Assembly: GCF_024498135.1 (NCBI RefSeq)
Contig: NZ_JANHOH010000005.1
Location: 1-64,000, forward strand
DNA from: Mucilaginibacter aquariorum
Lineage (GTDB): Bacteria; Bacteroidota; Bacteroidia; Sphingobacteriales; Sphingobacteriaceae
Direction of reading: 5' to 3'
Length of the DNA: 64,000 nucleotides
A program made the position numbers and the translations under genes. The notes beneath the pieces are model-generated. The model saw only the letters and a program-made list of their open reading frames with translations. It searched no databases and was not told the origin of the DNA. Below, piece after piece: positions 24,513 to 25,802 of this stretch; within the stretch, counting starts at the first letter, position 1, and each line of letters begins with the position of its first letter.

Positions 24513-25802
24513 TTAGTAAAGCAACCTAAATTTTATGGTTTGCTCAATAGCTTTTAGCTGGTTTAGTACCTGGGTATCATAACCGGTATTAACATCGGTA
24601 ATTACGTAACCAATTTGTGGGTTGGTCACCAAAAACTCTCCAACAATATTAATATTGTGCTCAGCAAATACCTCGTTTATTTGAGCCAGTATACCGGGTA
24701 CATTTTTGTGGATATGGATCAGGCGGTGCGCATTATTAATACGTGGTGGCTGCAGATCGGGGAAGTTACAGCTCATATGCGTTTTTCCCTCGTTCATAAA
24801 AGCAATTACCCTGCGGGGGATAAAATCATTATTGCGGGGGTTTGCCTTAGGGTCGTCAAAAATAATGATACCCTTTTCGCAGGCAGCCTCGGCCAGTTTA
24901 CGGCTCACGCGGCCGAAACAACCTATTACTTTTAGGCGCCCGGCGTTTTCCAGTTGCTCGGGTTTTGGCAGGTTTGCCTCATCGCAAAACAACACACCGG
25001 CCTCGTCTAAATATTCTTTTTCTATGCTATCGCGATGGCGCAGGTTATAGCCCTCGCGTTTCATCTGTGCCAAAGCTTCATCGTCTATATTACCTACAAT
25101 AAGGCATTTTATGCGGTTTTTAGGGTATGATATTGCTCTTGGCAGTTTATTGATGTACAAAAACTCGTCAAAGCTGGGCGTAATATGGTCGGCCTTTTCG
25201 GCTACAGATTTACGCTCAATGTTTTCAGTAAAAGCAAAGAATTTTTTGATCATGCCCGATTCCTTCAATTGGAAATCGGAGTAACCATCGCCAATACCAA
25301 AAATCTCGCCCGGCAGGTTTAGCTCTTTTAAAAGTTTCACTTTGCCACCCTCTTGCGATAACGGGTTTTCGCGATCGTAACCTATAATGTTGCCCTCTTC
25401 GTCAAACACAAAAGTATTGGCGTAGATATTTTCCTTTTTTATGTGATATTCGGTTACAACCGGAGTGATGAATTCCTTGAAGCCACCTGACACAATAAGC
25501 ACCTTATCCTGATGGTTCTTAAAAAATATGGTATTGCGGGAAAACGATGTAGACACCTTTTTCTTTAAATGGGTGATCAGCATTTTCAAGTGGTCGCGGT
25601 TAGCGCAAAGCAGTTTTACACGTTGCTCCAGACTATCAGTGAACGACAACCGGCCCTCCATTGAAGCATTAGTAAGGTCTTCTATCTGTTTATAGATAGC
25701 TTCCCTGTCAGGGTGATTTTTTAATGAGATGCGTGCTAACTCGTCTAAAGCTTCTACCTGTGTAAAGGTGCTGTCGAAATCTATTATAAAATACTGATCC
25801 AT
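24513..25802 (-). CDS. HAD-IB phosphoserine phosphatase-like protein fused to a SerA remnant and an ACT domain
   Basis: A 429-residue three-part protein. Residues 1-215 are an HAD-IB phosphatase of SerB type: DFDSTFT (motif I, Asp8 and Asp10), VLIVSGGFKEF (motif II) and GIGDGYSDFQL (motif IV). Residues 231-335 match the first part of the substrate-binding domain of 3-phosphoglycerate dehydrogenase (LKVIGCFGRVSRKLAEAAC). The NAD-binding Rossmann domain is absent, and the sequence jumps to the SerA C-terminal join (CNFPDLQPP). The ACT domain (about 358-429, HRLIHIHKNVPGIL) keeps the serine-ligand residues. The start at 25802 is chosen because the longer frame to 25952 runs through a REP-like repeat. 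Likely function: serine synthesis with feedback sensing; see findings. Confidence 0.85.
   Translation of the reverse strand: MDQYFIIDFDSTFTQVEALDELARISLKNHPDREAIYKQIEDLTNASMEGRLSFTDSLEQRVKLLCANRDHLKMLITHLKKKVSTSFSRNTIFFKNHQDKVLIVSGGFKEFITPVVTEYHIKKENIYANTFVFDEEGNIIGYDRENPLSQEGGKVKLLKELNLPGEIFGIGDGYSDFQLKESGMIKKFFAFTENIERKSVAEKADHITPSFDEFLYINKLPRAISYPKNRIKCLIVGNIDDEALAQMKREGYNLRHRDSIEKEYLDEAGVLFCDEANLPKPEQLENAGRLKVIGCFGRVSRKLAEAACEKGIIIFDDPKANPRNNDFIPRRVIAFMNEGKTHMSCNFPDLQPPRINNAHRLIHIHKNVPGILAQINEVFAEHNINIVGEFLVTNPQIGYVITDVNTGYDTQVLNQLKAIEQTIKFRLLY

Follow-up and report, generated by a model that had tools for sequence, protein, structure and literature searches.

A predicted phosphoserine phosphatase of Mucilaginibacter aquariorum joined to the substrate and ACT domains of SerA: a candidate serine sensor probably derived from a bifunctional fusion

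Domain organization of the encoded protein

The window, a contiguous stretch of 64,000 nucleotides from M. aquariorum, carries on its minus strand an open reading frame that begins with an ATG at position 25802, a start position common to the homologues, and ends with a stop codon at position 24513. The features of this gene are listed in Table 1. The deduced protein of 429 amino acids gave matches in Pfam and NCBIfam to HAD (residues 6-179), SerB/HAD-IB (residues 4-203) and ACT (residues 361-424) families, along with a weak match to the 2-Hacid_dh catalytic domain (residues 234-323, E 0.048). A phmmer comparison with Escherichia coli SerA aligned two separate pieces, residues 224-324 with 4-111 and residues 330-429 with 310-410, and an AlphaFold2 model of the whole protein was obtained with a mean pLDDT of 93 and a pTM of 0.84. 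These data bear out the initial annotation, which had described an HAD-IB phosphatase joined to a piece of the SerA substrate domain and to the SerA ACT domain, with the NAD-binding domain (NBD) missing.

Table 1. Positions of the gene, its domains and selected codons in the window
Feature	Coordinates	Strand	Remark
Whole gene: HAD phosphatase, SerA substrate domain and ACT domain	24513..25802	minus	429 codons plus stop
HAD-IB phosphoserine-phosphatase domain, residues 1-222	25137..25802	minus	Pfam, NCBIfam, structure match
SerA substrate (lateral) domain, residues 223-339, two halves directly joined	24786..25136	minus	
Junction of the missing NBD, about residues 324/325 (E. coli SerA 111/305)	24830..24831	minus	
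Linker between substrate domain and ACT domain, residues 340-357	24732..24785	minus	model
SerA-type ACT domain, residues 358-429	24516..24731	minus	Pfam, NCBIfam, model
Codons H365 to N367, equivalents of E. coli SerA His344 and Asn346	24702..24710	minus	
Codon N385, equivalent of E. coli SerA Asn364	24648..24650	minus	

The N-terminal part of the model matched the phosphoserine phosphatase (PSP)-like protein of Francisella tularensis (3kd3, Z 26.6) and human PSP (6hyy, Z 25.5), which share the HAD-IB fold and the active-site residues and, unlike the protein studied here, consist of a single domain without a regulator. In the alignment with human PSP, the HAD motifs and the Mg- and phosphate-binding residues of phosphoserine phosphatase were present. 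Conservation was assessed in a set of 159 homologues comprising 101 sequences from Mucilaginibacter or from the genome itself, 18 from other Sphingobacteriaceae, that of genome G248, and 18 with a dead and 21 with a live NBD (f-, g-, G- and L-numbers are the family, genus, genome and locus codes of the genome collection). The catalytic residues D8, D10, S105, K154, D172 and D176 were each invariant in all 159 sequences. Residues E17, M48, F54 and R61, which were found in 158, 142, 156 and 159 of the 159 sequences, respectively, align with Glu29, Met52, Phe58 and Arg65 of human PSP, which we take to be its substrate residues.

The HAD domain passed the cut-off of the HAD-IB subfamily TIGR01488 (63.6 versus 45 bits) and missed that of the curated SerB family TIGR00338 (66.4 versus 144.15 bits). 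A search of the genome with TIGR00338, which does not extend to phosphatases of other superfamilies, revealed no second SerB, and the gene in the window is the only SerB-like HAD detected by it; the stronger of the remaining matches lie in long open frames of 568-903 codons that resemble P-type ATPases, a reading by size and not by a domain test. Accordingly, the protein stands outside TIGR00338 membership and is probably to be classed as SerB by function. The missed cut-off would also fit an HAD domain that acts on another small phosphate ester, and PSP-like HADs of other bacteria have histidinol phosphate as their assigned substrate (PMC5764234), yet such a non-SerB role is highly improbable in view of the retained substrate residues, of an apparent parent that is fused to an intact SerA, and of the lack of any other SerB-like HAD in the search.

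Superposition of model residues 227-429 on residues 7-410 of E. coli SerA covers about 200 residues (about 2 A, 31-32% identity). Therefore, the SerA-derived part is no scrap but comprises a nearly whole substrate domain with its ACT domain: the 'SerA fragment' of the initial annotation indeed derives from the substrate domain, although it is not a fragment, since only the inserted NBD has been removed. An NBD concealed within residues 231-335, named beforehand as the result that would speak against this domain structure, was not found there: the NBD family PF02826 had no Pfam match in the protein, and a hidden NBD was ruled out by Pfam, by the structure comparison and by the alignment junction, which joined E. 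coli positions 111 and 305 in all 19 of the Sphingobacteriaceae proteins examined. The SerA catalytic residues Arg240, Glu269 and His292 lie within the missing stretch and are thus absent, and the substrate residues Arg60/Ser61 are replaced by Asp/Glu; because of these losses and replacements, the protein is by its sequence neither a SerA nor a dehydrogenase.

The pN/pS ratios, which are rough because the synonymous sites are near saturation, were low in all three parts of the protein (0.086 for the ACT domain, 0.095 for the phosphatase and 0.171 for the substrate domain); the value of the substrate domain is about twice that of the other two, yet still low. The earlier idea that the SerA part serves as a spacer or interaction module can accordingly be refined to a nearly complete, folded substrate domain that is under selection and forms one unit with the ACT domain in the model.

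Distribution and origin of the truncated fusion

The truncated fusion was detected as a single copy in 191 of the 201 Sphingobacteriaceae genomes sampled and in 150 of the 151 genomes of an order-level sample that contains largely the same genomes. The search of other Bacteroidota for the same architecture, proposed in the initial annotation, thus showed it to be a family-wide trait with one further NBD-less case in G248. A pseudogene or an assembly artefact was ruled out by this distribution, by the absence of internal stops from the listed matches and by the purifying selection; the distribution and the low pN/pS of all three parts likewise go well past what chance would give. The closest named matches came from Mucilaginibacter isolate RYN_316 (99% identity) and M. 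terrigena (97%), which places the genome in Mucilaginibacter.

Most relatives elsewhere in the Bacteroidia are SerB-SerA-ACT fusions of about 630 amino acids that contain a whole SerA. These proteins share the order of the HAD and ACT domains with the truncated form, at 43-51% identity and with conserved HAD active-site and serine residues; they differ from it in that the NBD is complete and, for most families, all catalytic residues of phosphoglycerate dehydrogenase (PGDH) are present. In the fusions of families f2, f4, f9, f11, f14, f41, f42, f44 and f49, none of the SerA catalytic and substrate residues checked (R60, S61, N108, R240, E269 and H292) has been lost, and the fusion encoded at locus L148 scores 646 bits as SerA. 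The genomes of f2, f14 and f44 gave no orthologue of the short SerA, so that the fusion probably serves as both SerA and SerB there, as judged from gene content; the other families with the 630-aa fusion also have a short SerA. The full-length fusion, which may well be already known to annotators, is the apparent parent of the truncated form, and the SerA-derived half of the latter is a relic of this bifunctional protein still present in other Bacteroidia.

Dehydrogenase function has been lost in two ways. In 18 homologues the NBD is present and dehydrogenase or substrate residues are lost (family f10, in the order of G385, with 16 proteins, and genomes G272 and G257), while the NBD itself is deleted in the Sphingobacteriaceae (junction 111/305) and in G248 (junction 105/306). 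With the exception of one assembly of 71% completeness, all examined genomes with a dead or deleted NBD, among which f10 is represented by G385 only, carry a separate orthologous short SerA. In the proteins of the order of G385 (L163, L178-L192), the dehydrogenase residues are lost, yet almost all retain the Rossmann motif GxGxxG and Asp181, and it is possible, to judge from these motifs, that they represent NAD(H)-binding pseudo-dehydrogenases on a phosphoserine phosphatase.

A tree of the HAD and ACT domains placed f10 as sister to the Sphingobacteriaceae (SH-aLRT 85) and G248, G272 and G257 elsewhere. The AU test rejected a single loss shared by all lineages (p 0.0002) and likewise a common origin for both NBD deletions (p 0.011), with the caveats that G248 is a long branch, that the groups were named after the tree had been seen and that the grouping of f10 with the Sphingobacteriaceae has an SH-aLRT of only 85. 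The AU tests thus support an independent loss of the dehydrogenase, several times, within the Bacteroidia.

Some Sphingobacteriaceae (genomes G205, G010, G023 and G024; genera g11, g23 and g24) contain the short SerA, and neither the truncated fusion nor any TIGR00338 SerB was found in them; another phosphatase may perform the phosphoserine step there. Additionally, serB and serA are adjacent separate frames with intact SerA catalytic residues at L144 (G285), an arrangement that may derive from the fusion by splitting or represent its unfused state, and the fusion frame of L193 in G389, a relative of G248, is broken near residue 82 by a sequencing error or by decay.

Serine biosynthesis and the predicted role of the ACT domain

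The genome contains adjacent serC and serA genes on contig C1 (locus L005) that are unlinked to the gene in the window, and no serine genes occur beside the latter within the 64 kb. The SerC protein passes its curated cut-off, whereas the SerA protein consists of a substrate domain and an NBD, a domain search revealing no ACT domain. A separate full SerA, about which the initial annotation had asked, therefore exists, and it lacks the regulatory domain. By its domain structure it falls into the type III class of SerA enzymes, which are not feedback-regulated by serine (PMC6300728), and the PGDH of this genome is assigned to this locus. Since it has no ACT domain, the phosphatase alone among the pathway enzymes identified carries a serine-sensor ACT domain of the SerA type.

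The initial annotation had equated H365, N367 and N385 with His344, Asn346 and Asn364 of E. coli SerA, and the alignment upholds this assignment. These residues bind serine in the E. coli enzyme, where the ligand is held by a pair of ACT domains and rotates the unit of substrate domain and ACT domain (PMC6300728). All three are invariant in the 159 homologues, including every lineage without dehydrogenase function; this invariance could be structural in cause, as 15 further columns in the ACT region show no variation either.

Taking the domain make-up, the excision, the separate SerA, the conservation and the repeated loss from sequence and model, we infer that phosphoserine would be the substrate, that the ACT domains of two subunits would pair and that L-serine would bind at their interface via H365, N367 and N385 of the partner chain. 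By analogy with E. coli SerA, the substrate-domain/ACT unit would relay the signal to the fused phosphatase, with lower activity as the presumed outcome. The presumed order of events starts from a bifunctional SerB-SerA-ACT fusion, whose dehydrogenase function would have decayed after the first step had passed to a separate SerA of the unregulated type III; in the Sphingobacteriaceae, the NBD would then have been cut out in frame and the serine sensor retained. The reading that we favour, and consider reasonably likely, is thus that the protein is the SerB of the cell, equipped with a SerA-derived half as serine sensor and descended from the bifunctional fusion by excision of the NBD. The comparative evidence favours serine feedback on the last step of the pathway, and the persistence of the serine-sensing end of SerA after removal of the dehydrogenase core suggests that serine probably controls this last step instead of the first. 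The constraint on the ACT domain, which resembles that on the phosphatase (roughly 0.086 versus 0.095), counts for this reading, as does the serine control known for the ACT-bearing phosphoserine phosphatase of mycobacteria (PMC10564941). Against it stand the requirement of the serine site for two subunits, the score of the HAD domain below the SerB cut-off, the relatives with a short SerA in which neither the fusion nor a TIGR00338 SerB was found, the possibly structural invariance of the three contact residues, and the consideration that control of the last step only would let phosphoserine accumulate and is a less usual control point.

The same domain structure would be compatible with a real phosphatase whose SerA-derived half serves for dimerisation or stability alone, with an ACT domain that has lost its response to serine. 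ACT domains often dimerise, regulatory domains added to PGDHs are not always functional according to a review (PMC6300728), and change in the substrate domain is about twice as rapid as elsewhere in the protein. This alternative appears rather unlikely, as PGDHs with a serine-insensitive ACT domain have altered contact residues (PMC6300728), whereas the contacts are maintained here through several losses of the dehydrogenase. The identity of the ligand and the direction of its effect bear on a further alternative, namely that the ligand of the ACT domain is an amino acid other than serine, or that the phosphatase is activated by this domain rather than inhibited. ACT domains bind many ligands, the best Pfam ACT model for the protein is of the AHAS small subunit type, and the sign of an effect is not readable from sequence; nevertheless, the nearest curated full-length NCBIfam family is SerA and all three serine contacts are kept, so that we attach little probability to this variant.

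The composition of the pathway also raises the idea that the half comprising substrate and ACT domains is a serine sensor for the short SerA, working in trans or through a complex with SerC/SerA, in which case the first step would be controlled. The short SerA has no ACT domain of its own, and nearly every examined genome with the truncated fusion also encodes it. Such an action is nevertheless quite improbable: the subunit contacts of E. coli SerA are NBD-NBD and ACT-ACT contacts (PMC6300728), so that, with the fusion devoid of the NBD and the short SerA devoid of the ACT domain, no conserved interface is left between them; moreover, the two genes are unlinked, and the short SerA occurs without the fusion in G010, G023, G024 and G205.

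If serine inhibits the phosphatase, as the favoured reading predicts, an allosteric module would have outlived its enzyme and been put to use on a second enzyme in that pathway. The stages would still be open to comparison: a bifunctional form that resembles the ancestor, an intermediate with a dead NBD, and the end product from which the NBD has been excised. It would offer a possible answer to how the Sphingobacteriaceae, with a SerA lacking a regulatory domain, could control serine synthesis. More speculatively, and doubtful at present, serine control may have shifted throughout the family from the entry enzyme of the pathway to the final one by excision of a catalytic core with retention of its allosteric module, more than once in the Bacteroidia, and the dead dehydrogenase of the sister order may sense NAD(H), so that the phosphatase would read both serine and redox state.

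Comparison with known enzymes and genomic context

With E. coli SerA, a type II D-3-phosphoglycerate dehydrogenase (1psd, 1yba), the protein shares the substrate and ACT domains and the residues corresponding to His344, Asn346 and Asn364, whereas it has lost the NBD (about residues 112-304) and has its SerA part placed behind a phosphatase. ACT domains are likewise present in the mycobacterial phosphoserine phosphatase SerB2 (ACT1-ACT2-HAD), the oligomeric state and activity of which are altered by L-serine (PMC10564941). SerB2 differs in having two N-terminal ACT domains and no SerA substrate domain, is not built from SerA, and uses other serine residues in M. tuberculosis (E33, R103 and T136); its N-terminal tandem ACT is absent from the 429-aa protein, which has an N-terminal HAD domain and a single C-terminal ACT domain. 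The latter protein is accordingly a new form within the known group of ACT-bearing phosphoserine phosphatases and not a separate kind. An N-terminal PSP-type HAD domain joined to an NAD-dependent dehydrogenase is also found in the algal PSP-GPDH bidomain enzyme of Dunaliella (6iuy; PMC7468427); in this case the dehydrogenase is intact, belongs to another family and pathway, and is not accompanied by an ACT domain.

An earlier description of the NBD-less SerB-SerA-ACT form was not found in the literature within reach, to which subscription journals and supplements did not belong. In the accessible text, GapMind does not give SerB among the gaps that remain for Pedobacter.

With respect to the genomic context, a scan for promoters and terminators at the gene gave no more than chance matches, and its neighbours in the window are not conserved in other genera. 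A gene encoding an NAD-dependent epimerase-like protein, absent beside the locus in the window, is located near the fusion in many Mucilaginibacter loci and directly upstream of it in 17 of 18 other genera (L125-L142).
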